DNA from: Cyanobium sp. M30B3 | Lineage (GTDB): Bacteria > Cyanobacteriota > Cyanobacteriia > PCC-6307 > Cyanobiaceae | NCBI GenBank assembly: GCA_018399015.1 | Contig: CP073761.1 | Coordinates: 2,170,001 to 2,234,000, forward strand | Direction: 5' to 3' | Length of the DNA stretch: 64,000 nucleotides | Shown: in pieces, positions 29,792 through 37,004 of the stretch | How positions within the stretch are numbered: position 1 is the first letter of the stretch | Layout: the number at the start of each line of letters is the position of its first letter | Made by a program: the position numbers and the translations under genes | The notes under the pieces: model-generated | What the model saw: the letters and a program-made list of their open reading frames with translations, nothing else | Databases searched by the model: none | What the model was told of the DNA's origin: nothing

Positions 29792-31180
29792 TCAGTGGGC
29801 CACAACCCTCACCGTATCAGCGATCTGCCCGGGCCAGCGCCGGGCCTGCTCCTGCAGCCAGGCGGCCCGCTCGCCATCGATCCGCTCGCCGGGGATGAGC
29901 AGGGGGATCCCCGGCGGGTAGGGGCAGATCGGCGCGGCGGCGATCCGGCCGGCGGCGACGGCCAGGGGCACGGCCTGGCTGGTGGCACGCCAGGCCGTGC
30001 CCAGGGGTAGGTCCGGCTCAGCCACCAGCGGCAGGGGCGGCCGGCTGAAGGGCGGCAGCGGCGGCCCGCCCAGGGCCGCCTTCAGGGCCAGCAGCGCCCG
30101 CGGCAACCGCCACTCCACCCCGGCCGGTGGCCGCTCCCCCAGGCAGAAGGTGAGGGTGCCCGGTTCCGGCAGTTCGGCCAGCACCCGCCGCTGCAGCAGC
30201 CAGGCATCGGCCTCCAGGCCGTTGATGCCCAGGGCGGCGGTGTGCAGCACCAGGCGCAGGGGATCCTGGTTGGCCAGCAGGGGCAGGCCCCGGGCCCGGC
30301 AGCGCTGGCGCAGGCGGGCGGCGCGGGCCTCGGCATGGCGGCGGCGGCGCAGGCCGGCGGGGCTGGCGGCGGCCAGCAGGGAGGCCTCGGCCGAGGCCAG
30401 CAGCAGGGCACTGGGGCTGGAGGTCTGCAGCCAGAGCAGGGCCCGCTCCAGGGCGGGGAGGGCCAGCCGCTGCCCCTGGGCCAGCAGCACCGCGCTCTGG
30501 GCCAGGCCGCCGCCCGCCTTCTGGCAGGAGAGCACCACCAGGTCGGCGCCGGCGGCCAGGGCCTCGCCGCGGCCGTGGGCCTGGTCCACCAGCACCGGCA
30601 GCCCCGCCGCCTGCAGGAGGCTCACCAGCGCCGGCAACGCATCCGCCGCCAGCCCCTGGTACGTGGGCGACACCAGCACCGCCGCCGCCAGCGGTCCGCT
30701 CTCCAGGGCCGCGGCCAGCACCCGCTCCAGCCAGGCCGGATCGGGCGGCAGCCACAGGCCGGTGGCCGGATCGAAGGGCAGGTCGAACAGCACGGGCCGC
30801 AGCTGGCCCAGCAGGCAGCCGTGCAGCAGCGAGCGGTGCAGCTGGCGCGGCAGCAGCACCCGGCTGCCCGGCGGCGCCAGCGCCAGCAGGGCGGCCTGCA
30901 GCAGCCCGGAGGCACCGTTCACCCCGAACCAGCAGTGGTCGGCGCCGAGCAGGGCGGCGCAGCGGCGCTGGGCATCGGCCACCCCGCCCTCCGGCTCGAG
31001 GGGACCGCCGATCTCCGGCAGTTCCGGAAGGTCCCAGCGGCCGGGGGGCTGGCGCAGCAGCAGGGCCAGGGGCGGTGCCAGCCCCCGGCCGCGCCCGTGG
31101 GCAGGCAGGTGCAGGGCCAGGGGGGGAAGTGGCCGCCAGGGTTGGCGCAGCAGCAGGGCGGGCAACAGCGGGCGCATCAC
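29792..31180 (-). CDS. PLP-dependent Orn/Lys/Arg decarboxylase family protein
   Basis: A 462-residue fold-type I enzyme of the short arginine/lysine decarboxylase group. Landmarks are LPAHGRGRG, FGVNGASGLLQAALLAL, LLPRQLHRSLLHGCLL, VSPTYQGLAAD, PVLVDQAHG and the PLP lysine in VVLSCQKAGGGLAQSAVLL, followed by PICPYPPGIPLLIPGE near the end. The usual STHK around the lysine is CQK here, a change that could alter substrate choice. It may serve polyamine synthesis. Divergent from the UbiB-type kinase. Confidence 0.85.
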   Translation of the reverse strand: MMRPLLPALLLRQPWRPLPPLALHLPAHGRGRGLAPPLALLLRQPPGRWDLPELPEIGGPLEPEGGVADAQRRCAALLGADHCWFGVNGASGLLQAALLALAPPGSRVLLPRQLHRSLLHGCLLGQLRPVLFDLPFDPATGLWLPPDPAWLERVLAAALESGPLAAAVLVSPTYQGLAADALPALVSLLQAAGLPVLVDQAHGRGEALAAGADLVVLSCQKAGGGLAQSAVLLAQGQRLALPALERALLWLQTSSPSALLLASAEASLLAAASPAGLRRRRHAEARAARLRQRCRARGLPLLANQDPLRLVLHTAALGINGLEADAWLLQRRVLAELPEPGTLTFCLGERPPAGVEWRLPRALLALKAALGGPPLPPFSRPPLPLVAEPDLPLGTAWRATSQAVPLAVAAGRIAAAPICPYPPGIPLLIPGERIDGERAAWLQEQARRWPGQIADTVRVVAH

Positions 31181-31246: not shown

Positions 31247-32947
31247 TTGCCCGTCGCGCCCGCCACCCCTGCTGCGTCTGTGGGGATCTCGTCCAGTACG
31301 GCCGGTTACCACCCCGGCGCCGACCTGCGCTGGCTGTTGCTGCGCCCCTGGCTGCTGCTGGGCCGCCTGGCCGCCGTGCTCTGGCAACTGGGCAGCCTGG
31401 TGGTGGTGCTGCTGGTGCAGGGGAGCAGCAGCGATGCCGCCACCCAGCGCCGCCTCGGCCAGCGCATCCTGCGCACCCTCACCCAGCTGGGCCCCTGTTT
31501 CATCAAGGTGGGGCAGGCCCTCTCCACCCGGCCCGACCTGGTTCGGCGCGACTGGCTGGAGGAGCTCACCCAGCTGCAGGACAACCTGCCCCCCTTCCCC
31601 CATGCCGTGGCCCTGGCCACGATCGAACAGGAGCTGGGCGCTCCGGCCCACCAGCTGTTTGTGGAGTTCCCCGACCACCCGATGGCGGCCGCCAGCCTGG
31701 GCCAGGTGTACCGCGCCCGCCTGGCCGACGGCCACTGGGTGGCGGTGAAGGTGCAGCGGCCCAACCTCGACTGGATCCTGCGCCGCGACCTGGTGCTGAT
31801 CCGCCTGCTGGGCAACGTAGCGGCGCCCTTTCTGCCCCTGAACCTGGGCTTCGGGCTCGGCGAGATCATCGACGAATTCGGCCGCTCCCTGTTCGAGGAG
31901 ATCGACTACCGCCTCGAGGCCGACAACGCCGAGCGCTTCGCCACCCTGTTCGCCGGCCATCCGGAGGTGACCGTGCCGGCGGTGGAGCGCCACCTGAGCG
32001 GCCAGCGGGTGCTCACCACCACCTGGCTGCACGGCACCAAGCTGCAGGAGCGCCACACCCTGGAGGCCCAGCGGCTCGACCCGGCCGCCCTGATCCGCAC
32101 CTGTGTGATCGCCGGCCTGCGCCAGTTGCTGGAATTCGGCTACTTCCACGCCGATCCCCATCCCGGCAACCTGTTCGCCCTGCCGGGCCGCACCGGCGCC
32201 ATGGGCCATGTGGGCTACGTGGATTTCGGCATGATGGATTCGATCAGTGATGCCGACCGCCTCACCCTCACCGGCGCGGTGGTGCACCTGATCAACCGGG
32301 ATTTCCGCGCCCTGGCCCAGGATTTCGTGACCCTGGGCTTCCTCAACCCCAGCGCCGATCTGGAGCCGATCATCCCCGCCCTCGACGAAGTGCTGGGGGG
32401 AGCCATCGGGGAAAACGTGGGCGACTTCAACTTCAAGGCGATCACCGACCGCTTCTCGGAGCTGATGTACGACTACCCCTTCCGGGTGCCGGCCCGCTTC
32501 GCCCTGATCATCCGCGCCGTGGTGAGCCAGGAGGGTCTGGCGATGCGCCTCGACCCCTCCTTCCGCATCCTGCAGGTGGCCTACCCCTACGTGGCCCGAA
32601 GGCTGCTGGCCGGCGACACCGCCGAGATGCGCGAGAAGCTGCTGGAGGTGCTGTTCGACCCCCAGGGCCGCCTGCGGGTGGAACGGCTGGAGAGCCTGCT
32701 GGCCGTGGTGGAGGGGGAGGGCCCCGGACCGGAGCTGCTGCCGGTGATGGGCTCGGGCCTGCGCCTGCTGCTCGGTCCCGATGGCGGCAGCCTGCGCCAG
32801 CGGCTGCTGCTCACCCTGGTGCAGGGCGACCACCTGCACACCGACGACCTCCGCGCCCTGGCAGGACTGCTGCGCCGCACCTTCTCCCCCCGCCGCCTGG
32901 CCGGGGGCATGCTGGCCCGCCTCAACCCGCTCAGCGCAGCAGCCTGA
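31247..32947 (+). CDS. AarF/ABC1/UbiB kinase-family protein
   Basis: Atypical protein-kinase-like ATPase family, linked to quinone metabolism and membrane lipid homeostasis. The 566-residue protein has the family KxGQ motif in CFIKVGQALSTRPDL, the ALAS-type loop HPMAAASLGQVYRARL (read with Ala-rich P-loop substitute), VAVKVQRPNL, and the catalytic FHADPHPGNLF and YVDFGMMDSI. Cyanobacteria carry several paralogues. Start TTG 31247 or GTG 31280; no ATG is close. Its stop lies within a 14-bp triplet repeat. Confidence 0.92.
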   Translation: MPVAPATPAASVGISSSTAGYHPGADLRWLLLRPWLLLGRLAAVLWQLGSLVVVLLVQGSSSDAATQRRLGQRILRTLTQLGPCFIKVGQALSTRPDLVRRDWLEELTQLQDNLPPFPHAVALATIEQELGAPAHQLFVEFPDHPMAAASLGQVYRARLADGHWVAVKVQRPNLDWILRRDLVLIRLLGNVAAPFLPLNLGFGLGEIIDEFGRSLFEEIDYRLEADNAERFATLFAGHPEVTVPAVERHLSGQRVLTTTWLHGTKLQERHTLEAQRLDPAALIRTCVIAGLRQLLEFGYFHADPHPGNLFALPGRTGAMGHVGYVDFGMMDSISDADRLTLTGAVVHLINRDFRALAQDFVTLGFLNPSADLEPIIPALDEVLGGAIGENVGDFNFKAITDRFSELMYDYPFRVPARFALIIRAVVSQEGLAMRLDPSFRILQVAYPYVARRLLAGDTAEMREKLLEVLFDPQGRLRVERLESLLAVVEGEGPGPELLPVMGSGLRLLLGPDGGSLRQRLLLTLVQGDHLHTDDLRALAGLLRRTFSPRRLAGGMLARLNPLSAAA

Positions 32948-32985
32948 GATCAGCGGCCGGAGATCAGCGGTCTGAGATCAACTGC
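32944..32985. repeat. 14-bp tandem repeat, three imperfect copies
   Basis: Units at 32944, 32958 and 32972, each containing GAGATCA. The array covers the stop of the kinase gene and the stop of the convergent channel gene. Confidence 0.88.
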
Positions 32986-34207
32986 CTGCGGGGATGGTGA
33001 GCCAGCACACCACAATCGTGAGCGAGCTGAACACCACCACCAGCAGGGGCCAGAGTTCGTCGAGACGGGTGAGCCGCCGCTGCATCTGCTCCCGCTCCAT
33101 CCCCTCCGCCAGGGCCTCCATGTCGCCGTAGCGGCGGCCGATCCAGAGCACCAGCACAAACGCCACCAGGGTGACCACGTAGGCCACCACATACACCATG
33201 TCGAGAAAGGTGAGGAAGGGCAGCTGGGGCAGTTCGGCCCGGTAGGTCTCCTGCAGGAACACCAGCGTGAGCAACACCGTGACCGGAATGCTGGCGCGGG
33301 CGTCCTGCTCATCCGGCCGCACCTTGAACACCAGCAGCACCATCGCCATCAACACCGCCAGCGGCAACAGCAGGCGCCAGAACGCCGCCCAGGCCGAGGT
33401 GCCATAGGCGATGTCGAACACCACCTGGCTGTAGTCGTTCTCAGGCCCGCCCAGGCCGAAGTTGGTGGCGTAGTGGTGGCGGTACTCGGCGATCGACCAG
33501 CCCCGATTCAGCCAGCCGATGATGCCGGCATAGAGGCCGATACCGCTGTTCTGCAGATCGGGTTCCAGGCGGAGGTTGGTGTAGTCGAGCCCGCCGTCCA
33601 CGTCGTCCACCTCCAGCACCAGCGGCAGACTCACTGTGGTGAAGGGATAGTGGCGAAAGCTGGCGCGATCGATGTAGAAGCGGCCGATGTAGCCGAACAG
33701 CTGGTAATAGCTGCCATCGCTGAGCTTTTCGGGGTTGTCGGAGAAGGGCCGCAGCACCGGCTCGGCGTCCGACACCAGGCCATTGAGCAGGTTGATCCGC
33801 TCGGCGATGCCCACCTGCTGGGCCTCCAGCAGATCCTGCAGCGGCTGATCCCAGCGCAGCCACACATAGCCGTTGGAGGAAAAACTGGGGACGCTCAGAT
33901 CGAGGTCGTAGGTGCTGTTGGCGTAGATGCCCACCTGCAGGTGGTGCTTCGCCCGCTCCAGGGCCTGCTGATCCTCTGCGGTCTCCGCTTCGCTGAGCCG
34001 CTCACCCCGCAGGGAGGTCCAGTCGCCGGCGCGCAGCCGGGCCGGATCGGTGGTGAGGGCCCGGGACGCGGAGGTGAGCCGCAGCGCATCGCGGTTCTGC
34101 ATCGGCACCACGTCGATGTGGGCAAGCCCCAGCACCCCCAGAATGATGGCCAGCACCAGCGAGACGGCGGCCAGGATGTTCCAGCGCTTCTGCTTGCGCG
34201 CGGCCAT
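32978..34207 (-). CDS. Pentameric (Cys-loop-type) ligand-gated ion channel homologue
   Basis: A 409-residue membrane protein with the layout of prokaryotic pentameric channels: an extra N-terminal helix (about 10-30), a beta-rich extracellular domain with VGIYANSTYDLDL (92-104), YVWLRWD (114-120) and HYPFTTVSLPLVLEV (186-200, matching the FPFD-Q-L loop), then M1 (272-294), M2 (about 305-320, ASIPVTVLLTLVFLQE), M3 (331-355, after LPQLPFLTFLD) and M4 (385-404). The paired Cys of animal receptors are absent, as in bacterial members. The ATG shares bases with the ATG of a divergent binding-protein gene. Ligand and ion selectivity are unknown. Confidence 0.8.
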   Translation of the reverse strand: MAARKQKRWNILAAVSLVLAIILGVLGLAHIDVVPMQNRDALRLTSASRALTTDPARLRAGDWTSLRGERLSEAETAEDQQALERAKHHLQVGIYANSTYDLDLSVPSFSSNGYVWLRWDQPLQDLLEAQQVGIAERINLLNGLVSDAEPVLRPFSDNPEKLSDGSYYQLFGYIGRFYIDRASFRHYPFTTVSLPLVLEVDDVDGGLDYTNLRLEPDLQNSGIGLYAGIIGWLNRGWSIAEYRHHYATNFGLGGPENDYSQVVFDIAYGTSAWAAFWRLLLPLAVLMAMVLLVFKVRPDEQDARASIPVTVLLTLVFLQETYRAELPQLPFLTFLDMVYVVAYVVTLVAFVLVLWIGRRYGDMEALAEGMEREQMQRRLTRLDELWPLLVVVFSSLTIVVCWLTIPAGS

Positions 34208-35402
34208 GGCAGACCAGGCTGACCGCCTGAGCGTACGGGGGCGCTGGCTGGGAGGCGCGCTCGTGCTGGTGCTGGCCATGGCCGCAGCCAGGGCAGCCAT
34301 CCCCACTCCCCCCGGGCCAGCCACCCAGGCCAGCAACGCCGCCGCTCCGCCTCCCCTTCTCTTGGGCCAGTCGGCCCCCCTCTCCGGCCCCTCGGGCCAG
34401 CTGGGCCAGGACTATCGCGAGGGGGCGGAGGCCTGGTTCGCGGAGGTGAACCGCCGTGGCGGCATCCACGGCCGGCCGATCCGCCTGGTGAGCCGCGACG
34501 ACCGCTACGAACCCGAGCTCACCCTGCGCAACACCCGCCAGCTGCTGCAGCAGGACCGGGTGCTGGCCCTGTTCGGCTATGTGGGCACGCCCACCAGCAA
34601 GGCCGTGCTGCCCCTGGTGGAGCGCGAGCGCGTCCCCTTCGTGGCCCCCCTCACCGGTGCCCAGACCCTGCGCCAGCCCCTGCGCGCCACTGTGTTCCAC
34701 CTGCGGGCGGGCTACCAGGCCGAGATCGATCAGCTGGTGGATGCCCTGGTGCGCGATGCCCGCCACCGGATCGCCGTGCTGGCTCAGAACGATGCCTTCG
34801 GCGACGATGGCCTGGTCGCCAGCGAGCGGGCCCTGGCGCGCCATGGGCTGAAGCCCGTGGCCACGGCCAGGGTGGAGCGCAACTCCAGCCAGGTGGGCAG
34901 TGCCGTGGCAACGATCACGCGCGCCCGGCCCAACGGGGTGATCATCATCGCGGCCTACCCCGGCTCGGCCGCCTTCAGCCGGGAGTTGCGCCGGCGCCGC
35001 AGCACGGCCCAGCTGATGAATGTGTCGTTCGTGGGCACCCGCGGCCTGCAGGACGCGCTGCCGGGGGGCGAGGCCAGCGGCATCGGCGTTGCCCAGGTGG
35101 TGCCCTTTCCCTGGAACCGGCGCCTGCCGGTGGTGGCCGACTACCAACGGTTGATGCAACGCCGGTCGCCCATGGCCAGCTTCGGCTTCACCAGCCTGGA
35201 GGGGTTCCTGGCCGCCCGGATGATCACCGAGGGGCTGCAGCGGGCCGGGCCCCGGCCCAGCAGGGAGGCGCTGATGCGCGGGCTGGAATCGATTCGCCAG
35301 CTCGACCTGGGCGGCTTCACGCTGGATCTCGGCCCGAAGGACCGCGAGGCCAGCGCCTTCACCGACCTCACCTTCCTGGGGGCCCAGCGCTGGGAACCCT
35401 GA
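34206..35402 (+). CDS. Type-I periplasmic binding protein (Leu/Ile/Val-binding-like)
   Basis: A 398-residue exported protein: basic start, hydrophobic core LGGALVLVLAMAAARA, then a mature domain of the Peripla_BP_6 family with LLLGQSAPLSGPSGQLGQDYR, WFAEVNRRGGIHGRPI, DDRYEPELTLRNTRQLL, FGYVGTPTSKAVLPL and IAVLAQNDAFGDDG. No ABC permease or ATPase lies nearby, so it is an orphan. It shares its start with the divergent channel gene (CATG at 34205-34208), which suggests a joint role in ligand sensing. Substrate is unknown, though this fold commonly binds amino acids. Confidence 0.88.
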   Translation: MADQADRLSVRGRWLGGALVLVLAMAAARAAIPTPPGPATQASNAAAPPPLLLGQSAPLSGPSGQLGQDYREGAEAWFAEVNRRGGIHGRPIRLVSRDDRYEPELTLRNTRQLLQQDRVLALFGYVGTPTSKAVLPLVERERVPFVAPLTGAQTLRQPLRATVFHLRAGYQAEIDQLVDALVRDARHRIAVLAQNDAFGDDGLVASERALARHGLKPVATARVERNSSQVGSAVATITRARPNGVIIIAAYPGSAAFSRELRRRRSTAQLMNVSFVGTRGLQDALPGGEASGIGVAQVVPFPWNRRLPVVADYQRLMQRRSPMASFGFTSLEGFLAARMITEGLQRAGPRPSREALMRGLESIRQLDLGGFTLDLGPKDREASAFTDLTFLGAQRWEP

Positions 35403-35445: not shown

Positions 35446-35925
35446 GTGCCCCTCGAGCCCTTTCCCGCCCCCGTGAGCCTGAGTGAGGCCGCCAGCGACC
35501 TGGCCAGCGGCGACTTCGGCGACCTGGACATGGCCGAGCTGCTGCTGGAGTTCGCACCGATCAGCCAGCCCCCCTATCTGGTGGCCGGTGTGGGCCTGGC
35601 GATCGGCGTGCTCTGCGGCCTCACCTTCGCCCGGCTGGTGCAGGACCGGCTCGAGGGCTGGAAGCAGGACCGGCTGGCCCTGCTGCCCCTGGGCAATGCC
35701 GCCACCACCCTGCCCTACATCGGCGTGGTGATCGGCATCACCCTGTTCATCGGCGGCAGCCTGCAGGTGTTCGGCTTCTCCAGCGGCGCGGCGCTGCTGG
35801 TGAGTTTCGTGCTGTCGCTGGCCACGGCCGGCGCCCTGTGGGTGCAGCTGGAGCGGCTGATGGGCCAGGTGCAGGACGGCACCTTCAGCGCCGTGGATTT
35901 CGACAACTTCGACCAGTTCTTCTAG
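35446..35925 (+). CDS. Conserved cyanobacterial membrane protein
   Basis: A 159-residue protein with three hydrophobic helices (YLVAGVGLAIGVLCGLTFARL, with two more in residues 90-130) between an acidic N-terminus and an acidic tail, DNFDQFF. It is conserved-looking with clean codon use but has no recognised domain. It follows the binding protein by 43 bp on the same strand and could belong to the same unit. GTG start at 35446. Confidence 0.55.
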   Translation: MPLEPFPAPVSLSEAASDLASGDFGDLDMAELLLEFAPISQPPYLVAGVGLAIGVLCGLTFARLVQDRLEGWKQDRLALLPLGNAATTLPYIGVVIGITLFIGGSLQVFGFSSGAALLVSFVLSLATAGALWVQLERLMGQVQDGTFSAVDFDNFDQFF

Positions 35926-35964
35926 GCAGCCCGTTTTTTAGGCAGCCCAATTTTTTAGGCAGCC
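35924..35964. repeat. AGGCAGCC tandem repeat, three copies
   Basis: AGGCAGCC at 35924, 35940 and 35957, with T-runs between. It bridges the ends of the membrane-protein gene and the convergent sigma factor gene; the T-runs might aid termination, but no hairpin is present. Confidence 0.88.
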
Positions 35965-37004
35965 AAGTAGCCGTCCAGCATGCGCGACTGGGAGCGGATG
36001 CCCTCGAGGGCCTTGCGCTCCAGGTTGCGGGCCTTGTCGCGGCTCATGCCCAGGGTCTTGGCGATCGAGCTGAGGCTCATCGGTTCGAGCATGCCGGTGC
36101 CGTCGTTGTCGATGCCGTAACGCATCTGCAGCACCCGCCCCTGCAGCTCCGGCAGCTGCTCCAGCAGCGCCCGCAGGTCCCCCTTCAGGCACTCCCCATC
36201 CAGGCGCTCCTCCGGCAGCTCCCCATCCCCCGCCAGCAGGTCCAGCAGTTCCGTGTCCTCCCCGTCACCCACCTTCGTCTCCAGGCTCACCGGCTGGCGC
36301 GCGCGGCACAGCAGGTCCTTCACCTCCTCCTCCGGCAGCTCCACCGCTTCGGCCAGTTCCGTCACCGTCGGCGTGCGCCCCAGCAGCTGGCTCAGCTCCC
36401 GCTGACCCTTCTTCAGCTTGTTCAGCGTCTCGGTGATGTGGATCGGCAACCGGATCGTGCGGCTCTTCTCGGCGATCGCCCGCGTGATCCCCTGGCGGAT
36501 CCACCAGTACGCATACGTCGAAAACTTGTAGCCCCGGGTGGGGTCGAACTTCTCCACACCCCGCACCAGCCCGATCGTTCCCTCCTGGATCAGGTCCAGC
36601 AGCTCCATGTTCCGCTTGGTGTATTTCTTCGCCACGCTCACCACCAGCCGCAGGTTCGCCGCCACCATCCGCTCCTTCGCCCGCCGGCCCGCACGCACGC
36701 GCTTGCGCAGCACCTGCTCGCTCAAACCCGCCGCCGCCGCCAGCTCCTCCTGGCTCGGCGCCGTGCCGCCAGCGCGCATCGTGAGCTCCTGCTCCAGCTC
36801 CTCGATCGCCACCAGCTCCTGCACCTGACGGCCCAGCGTGATCTCCTGCTCGTGCGTCAGCAGCGGCACCCGGCCGATGTCCCGCAGATAGCTGCGGACC
36901 AGGTCACCACCACCGCCACCGCTGCCAGCGGAGGGTTCCTGGGATGCTCCCCGGGAGCCGTTCGAGCTGGCAACGGCTGGCGCAGCCACGGCAAGGATGG
37001 TCAT
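35955..37004 (-). CDS. RpoD/SigA-family (group 2) RNA polymerase sigma factor
   Basis: A 349-residue sigma-70 factor. Region 1.2/2: [21 protein letters not shown] (read in parts), [32 protein letters not shown] and [19 protein letters not shown]; region 3: [15 protein letters not shown]; region 4: [20 protein letters not shown]. It lacks the long region 1.1 of the housekeeping factor and so is probably a group 2 factor for stress or clock-linked transcription. The ATG is preceded by a 24-bp palindrome (37014-37037) that may control it. Confidence 0.93.

Follow-up and report, generated by a model that had tools for sequence, protein, structure and literature searches.

A 64,000-nucleotide stretch of the Cyanobium sp. 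M30B3 genome (hereafter the window) encodes a 409-residue protein that homology and a structural model identify as a true member of the pentameric ligand-gated ion channels (pLGICs) and thus as kin of the receptor channels of nerve cells. Next to it and transcribed in the opposite direction lies the gene for a type-I periplasmic binding protein (PBP-I). We consider it fairly likely that the two genes encode a two-part chemosensor, in which the liganded binding protein would modulate gating of the channel. The genome consists of a single contig of 3.18 Mb, and the PBP-channel pair resides at 2.20 Mb. The relevant features are as follows:

32978 to 34207, minus strand: pLGIC subunit P0001, 409 aa, assigned by homology, profile and AlphaFold model; hydrophobic helix 11-29, linker, beta-sandwich extracellular domain at about 88-269, transmembrane helices M1 272-295, M2 301-323, M3 334-365 and M4 370-404
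34206 to 35402, plus strand: orphan PBP-I P0002, 398 aa from the candidate ATG at 34206; signal-like N-terminus (read by eye), then Peripla_BP_6 domain
34205 to 34208: CATG holding both divergent start codons, that of the PBP being a candidate start
35446 to 35925, plus strand: gene for a 159-aa membrane protein, a resident neighbor outside the system
ending at 32947: ABC1/UbiB-type kinase gene, flanking the pair on the channel side
35955 to 37004: RpoD-family sigma factor gene, beyond the 159-aa gene

The open reading frame coordinates agree with the initial annotation, which had described divergent channel and binding-protein genes with overlapping start codons: the channel ATG and the candidate PBP ATG share 2 bases within the CATG at 34205-34208. 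Of the 30 loci examined (window included), 12 carry a CATG at the aligned channel start and 18 do not. Neither a promoter nor a terminator was detected, or expected, when the start region was scanned for them. Two genes away from the channel, at 29792-31180 on the minus strand, we noted a weak match to ornithine/lysine decarboxylases; this gene is probably resident because a look-alike occurs at L060, a locus without a channel.

Homology of P0001 to characterized channels spans the extracellular as well as the transmembrane domains. Single-sequence phmmer retrieved ELIC with an E value of 5.9e-7 over residues 90-360, and a profile of 26 relatives matched ELIC at 7.8e-20 and GLIC at about 1e-10. 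Membership of the 32978-34207 protein in the pentameric-channel family, for which a profile search had been named as the check, is thereby upheld. The AlphaFold monomer (mean pLDDT 83.6) features a beta-sandwich domain followed by four transmembrane helices and matches GLIC with Z 22.6 and rmsd 3.2 over 285 aligned residues. Against Pfam, PF02932 gave a weak hit (E 0.0064, below the family cut-off), while the search with PF02931, without a match in the window's genome, is uninformative because 14 control genomes gave no match either. A plasmid search with the channel as query also gave no match. The Pro-loop proline, P188, is found in all rows of both alignments (26/26 and 40/40), and the same is true for R304, P308 and L313. 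An FPFD-like loop had been reported for this protein; the loop itself is present, with P188 as its Pro-loop proline, but its letters read YPFT. M2 shows the pore pattern of the family, with L313 as the hydrophobic 9' gate in 40/40 rows. Residue 302, placed at M2 -2', is acidic (D/E) in 26/26 and 39/40 rows, with N in one; the prime numbers were assigned by hand from the ELIC alignment, using -2' and 9' positions that we take to be the landmarks in ELIC and GLIC. An acidic residue at -2' predicts cation selectivity, and the channel is probably cation-selective. The predicted helix 11-29 at the N-terminus had been singled out as unusual. This view found no support, as relatives inspected by eye likewise start with a hydrophobic stretch, so that the helix is most simply read as a signal or membrane anchor.

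P0002 (searched as the open reading frame plus one extra leading codon) belongs to the PBP-I proteins by fold and by family profile, scoring 193 bits against PF13458 with a cut-off of 31.7. Its nearest solved relatives by sequence are 3lop (35% identity) and 4kv7 (33% identity), both with Z 37.2 and neither naming a bound ligand in its title. A hydrophobic stretch with AxA, read by eye, forms a putative signal peptide at the N-terminus. In a comparison with LivJ, on which we do not rely, the acidic residue that binds the amino group is seemingly not conserved. In the window's genome, PF02653 is found at two adjacent places only, which lie at 19-21 kb and represent UrtC and UrtB, and the same locus encodes an UrtA that scores above its curated cut-off. 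As UrtB and UrtC thus have their own binding protein, P0002 is a PBP without an evident transporter of the usual type, and the whole-genome PF02653 search revealed no cognate HAAT-type permease in its vicinity. No ABC permease or ATPase was detected among the neighbors scanned, i.e. the kinase gene, the 159-aa gene and the sigma-factor gene. The description of the binding protein as an orphan is therefore corroborated by PF02653, and that of a neighborhood free of ABC permease and ATPase by the scan of the adjoining genes.

The closest named relatives stem from Cyanobium and Synechococcus-type genomes. Within the family, the channel is patchily distributed, with a match (E 0.001 or better) in 61 of 201 genomes. 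A first set of 30 loci, obtained from the 201-genome search with 1.5-kb flanks, contains a PBP orthologue divergently oriented beside the channel in 25 cases (window included), and in the named set L073-L106 of the window's subfamily (47-83% identity) this arrangement occurs at 30 of 34 loci; the two sets overlap in genomes and their counts are not additive. In L073 and L094 the PBP gene is cut by the contig edge, and in L104 the channel is spread over two frames. The four exceptions are L082, which begins at a contig edge, and L093, L101 and L103, which are without PBP. The genomes of L101 and L103 (taken to be G156 and G169) do not contain any match to P0002 at E 0.001 or better. Since some channels occur without it, the PBP is not obligatory. 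A survey of neighbors in related genomes had been suggested for the proposed functional link of the two genes, and the link gains support from it, as the genes are still adjacent at 30 of the 34 named loci.

A PBP of 50% identity or more is situated next to the channel in 25 genomes at 27 places. In eight of these 25 genomes the pair resides at another chromosomal place, still together, and two genomes contain tandem duplicate pairs (seen as L042/L043 and again as L091/L087) in which the second channel copies group with their own kind and the second PBP copies with theirs. Channel and PBP distances are correlated with r 0.87 for 29 pairs, the best of 2000 permutations reaching 0.43. Where the 159-aa gene adjoins the pair (15 loci), channel and PBP correlate with r 0.91, and each of them with the 159-aa gene with 0.74 and 0.71, the partial r being 0.80; correlated channel and PBP distances can also stem from shared species history. 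Taken as a pattern across genomes, the pairing of PBP and channel is not a matter of chance. When 386 genomes of the phylum were searched, 13 outside the family had a channel match (E 1e-15 or better); 11 of them gave loci, and none of these 11 cyanobacterial loci (L172, L174-L183) has a PBP within 1.5 kb of the channel.

Some individual loci deviate from the common arrangement. The arrangement in L045:4836-7285 is tail to tail rather than head to head, with a divergent channel and a PBP that belong to the same lineages. L060 (genome G183) contains the 159-aa gene and a 75-residue PBP remnant with no channel beside it, an apparent loss of the pair. L077 carries a picocyanobacterial PBP-channel pair under the label Bifidobacterium breve and is probably mislabelled or derived from a mixed metagenome assembly. 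At L048:5204-7298, one genome has a second channel, divergently oriented to a gene for a Tll0287-like (PF11845) protein and likewise next to a stand-alone gene of sensor type.

The 159-residue membrane protein had been put forward as a possible third part. We do not regard it as a member of the system because its gene is present in 163 of 201 family genomes, compared with 61 of 201 for any channel match, and because it adjoins the pair in 17 of 25 genomes and not in the other eight, as read from coordinates. Its score against TctB is below the cut-off. Long open frames in six relatives (L031-L036) appeared as candidate PBP-channel fusions and were rejected; they are without any Pfam match at E 0.01, channel included, and their N-terminal parts look by eye like antisense of adjacent genes. 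In the window, PBP-I and pLGIC are encoded in two open reading frames and not in one polypeptide.

The association with PBP-I proteins extends to a second lineage. The 34 loci with more distant channels (L115-L148) divide into nine cyanobacterial and 25 non-cyanobacterial ones (one named only 'Bacterium'). In 17 of the 25 non-cyanobacterial loci a different, UrtA-like PBP-I gene is located directly upstream of the channel gene in the same direction. Every one of the 15 upstream PBPs that were scanned matched PF13433 with E below 1e-129; the remaining two, from L128 and L132, scored 35 and 25 bits against the PBP profile. A lipobox pattern is found in 14 of the 17, and the candidate channel start lies at -4 in seven. 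The hosts belong to the Myxococcota/Deltaproteobacteria, the Gammaproteobacteria (including Luminiphilus, Halieaceae and Halioglobus) and the Verrucomicrobiota. No such upstream PBP was found at the other 17 of the 34 loci, all nine cyanobacterial ones included; three of these 17 (L122, L137 and L140) are cut near a contig edge. In the PBP tree, which includes 14 of the 17 upstream PBPs, UrtA of the window's genome sits among these and away from the window's PBP lineage, and a tree uniting all pLGIC partner PBPs was rejected (AU p 3e-118; the tree was a quick one, and its branches are long). The link between PBP and pLGIC has therefore probably been formed at least twice, and the pairing with UrtA-like PBP-I proteins is apparently an independent recruitment. 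A third channel subfamily (L119, L126, L144, L145, L148 and L072) is located between DnaJ-like and hemB-like genes, the gene names being given by eye.

PBPs of the window's lineage also occur apart from channels of the pLGIC type. Where they are not beside such a channel, a gene for a bestrophin-like protein (PF14023) comes directly after them, as seen at 8/8 loci fetched from the 201 genomes (L053-L059 and L061). The PBPs at these loci are 40-49% identical, plus two that are partial or broken (L059, L061), and the 75-residue remnant of G183 is excluded from the count. The 4-12 kb of sequence obtained for each of these loci revealed no pLGIC. Eight of the 14 places with PF14023 above cut-off in the 201 genomes are such PBP-bestrophin loci.

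A sister clade of the channels (eight rows, one clade, SH-aLRT 98) features yet another gene arrangement. At seven loci the channel gene closes an operon whose other products are an enzyme of the histidine-decarboxylase family, a Cache-like membrane protein and an MFS transporter; at L112 only the MFS and channel genes are present in the available sequence. The decarboxylase operon was seen in L040, L044, L047, L081, L106, L108, L109, L110, L111 and L113, several of which represent the same genomes. It stands beside the PBP-channel pair in L081 and L106 and beside fragments of the pair in L109. The decarboxylases of L040, L044 and L047 score 335-390 bits with an equivalog cut-off of 305. This enzyme family may also include serine decarboxylases, which leaves more than one candidate for the amine of the sister operon. 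The label Cache-like for the membrane protein is a reading by eye together with a sub-threshold match, and a profile search of solved structures with this protein found nothing.

A two-part chemosensor made of P0001 and P0002 could work in the following way. The channel would assemble in the inner membrane as a homopentamer like GLIC and ELIC, its beta-sandwich domain located in the periplasm, and the binding protein would be exported and close on a small solute, perhaps an amino acid as first proposed. Most likely, the closed PBP would then dock on the periplasmic face of the channel and modulate gating in a manner similar to fused PBP-I domains elsewhere, hand-over of the ligand to the channel's own site being the second choice after docking. 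Opening would admit cations by way of the acidic ring at M2 -2', and a chemical signal would thus become a change in membrane potential or ion content. Docking is the most natural reading because of the PBP-I domains fused to pLGICs (PMC549065) and the N-terminal domain of DeCLIC (PMC12664993). Channels with no PBP beside them, in the subfamily, at half of the more distant loci and in cyanobacteria outside the family, weigh against the two-part model, as does the decarboxylase operon that the sister clade has in its place.

It is conceivable, if rather unlikely, that PBP and channel act in the same pathway without contact, each sensing the same or related solutes independently, with the PBP feeding UrtBC or another transporter and co-regulation keeping the genes together. 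PBP-I proteins normally serve ABC transporters and UrtBC is present in the genome, but the UrtBC locus has its own UrtA above the curated cut-off. Channels without PBP (L093, L101, L103) and a head-to-head start overlap that could serve shared regulation fit such an independent action, while the pairing of a separate PBP lineage with pLGICs in other phyla, and the fusion of PBP-I in others still, speak for contact. Alternatively, the PBP might merely concentrate a periplasmic solute and release it to the channel's orthosteric site, which we hold to be improbable. Delivery by a PBP usually involves its docking to a membrane partner, and the sequence evidence gives no preference for hand-over over docking. 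Release to the channel would be close to the proposal made by Tasneem et al. (2004; PMC549065), and ELIC needs high micromolar to millimolar agonist (PMC3119659), so that a concentrator would help. That the two genes are neighbors solely through joint acquisition or inheritance, without any functional tie, would agree with related channel and PBP trees and with the patchy channel family (61 of 201 genomes) but is highly improbable for a pair that stays intact when its chromosomal location differs, that is found duplicated as a unit and that has comparable counterparts with the other PBP-I lineage.

Returning to the two-part chemosensor, we tentatively suggest, as a possibility that we ourselves regard with some doubt, that PBP-I proteins are exchangeable soluble ligand-sensing subunits for bacterial channels and form a general two-part ligand-gated channel. 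They may have been recruited at least twice by pLGICs, i.e. from the Peripla_BP_6 lineage in picocyanobacteria and from the UrtA-like lineage in Gammaproteobacteria, Myxococcota and Verrucomicrobiota, and the first lineage possibly also by bestrophin-like proteins. The sister clade with histidine-decarboxylase-family enzyme and MFS transporter might then be the receptor arm of a biogenic-amine circuit. Little is known of what bacterial pLGICs bind and do in nature. A PBP partner that stands alone would offer a direct handle, as ordinary binding screens can find its ligand, and ligand plus protein can then be applied to the channel. If the suggestion is true, ligand sensor and channel can reside in different proteins that are exchangeable, with a parallel in the PBP-derived domains of animal glutamate receptors.

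The theme of PBP and pLGIC has been known since 2004, and the two-part idea itself is not new. Tasneem et al. (2004; PMC549065) describe PBP-I domains fused to pLGICs and PBP-II genes in operons with pLGICs, propose a role of such PBPs in concentrating or sensing the ligand on behalf of the channel, and assign a simple architecture to the cyanobacterial members. In the open-licence PMC literature searched, we found no mention of a PBP-I encoded separately next to a pLGIC, let alone as a conserved partner from two PBP lineages; nor did we find there a PBP paired with a bestrophin-like protein or a cyanobacterial histidine decarboxylase(-MFS)-pLGIC operon. The PBP-I-fused ART-LGICs from Magnetospirillum and Bradyrhizobium likewise combine a PBP-I sensory unit with a pLGIC core, the PBP being an N-terminal fusion there (PMC549065) and a separate, divergently encoded protein here. 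A separate sensor gene adjoining the channel gene is also a feature of the pLGIC operons with stand-alone PBP-II or Cache genes (PMC549065), whereas the sensors described here are PBP-I proteins from two separate lineages and are encoded head to head with the channel in picocyanobacteria. In DeCLIC (PMC12664993), a periplasmic accessory unit modulates a pLGIC as well, but this unit is calcium-dependent and resides within the channel chain, in contrast to a separate PBP. P0002 shares the PBP-I fold with LIV/HAAT-type binding proteins such as 3lop, 4kv7, LivJ, AmiC and UrtA (Z 30-37 among the matches listed) and differs from them in having a channel as neighbor and no cognate permease of the usual type found. 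With ELIC and GLIC, P0001 has in common the whole extracellular and transmembrane fold, the Pro-loop proline and the acidic -2' residue, which we assume to be a landmark of GLIC; it is set apart from them by low identity (16-19% to GLIC in the model alignment), by its N-terminal helix and linker and by its PBP partner.
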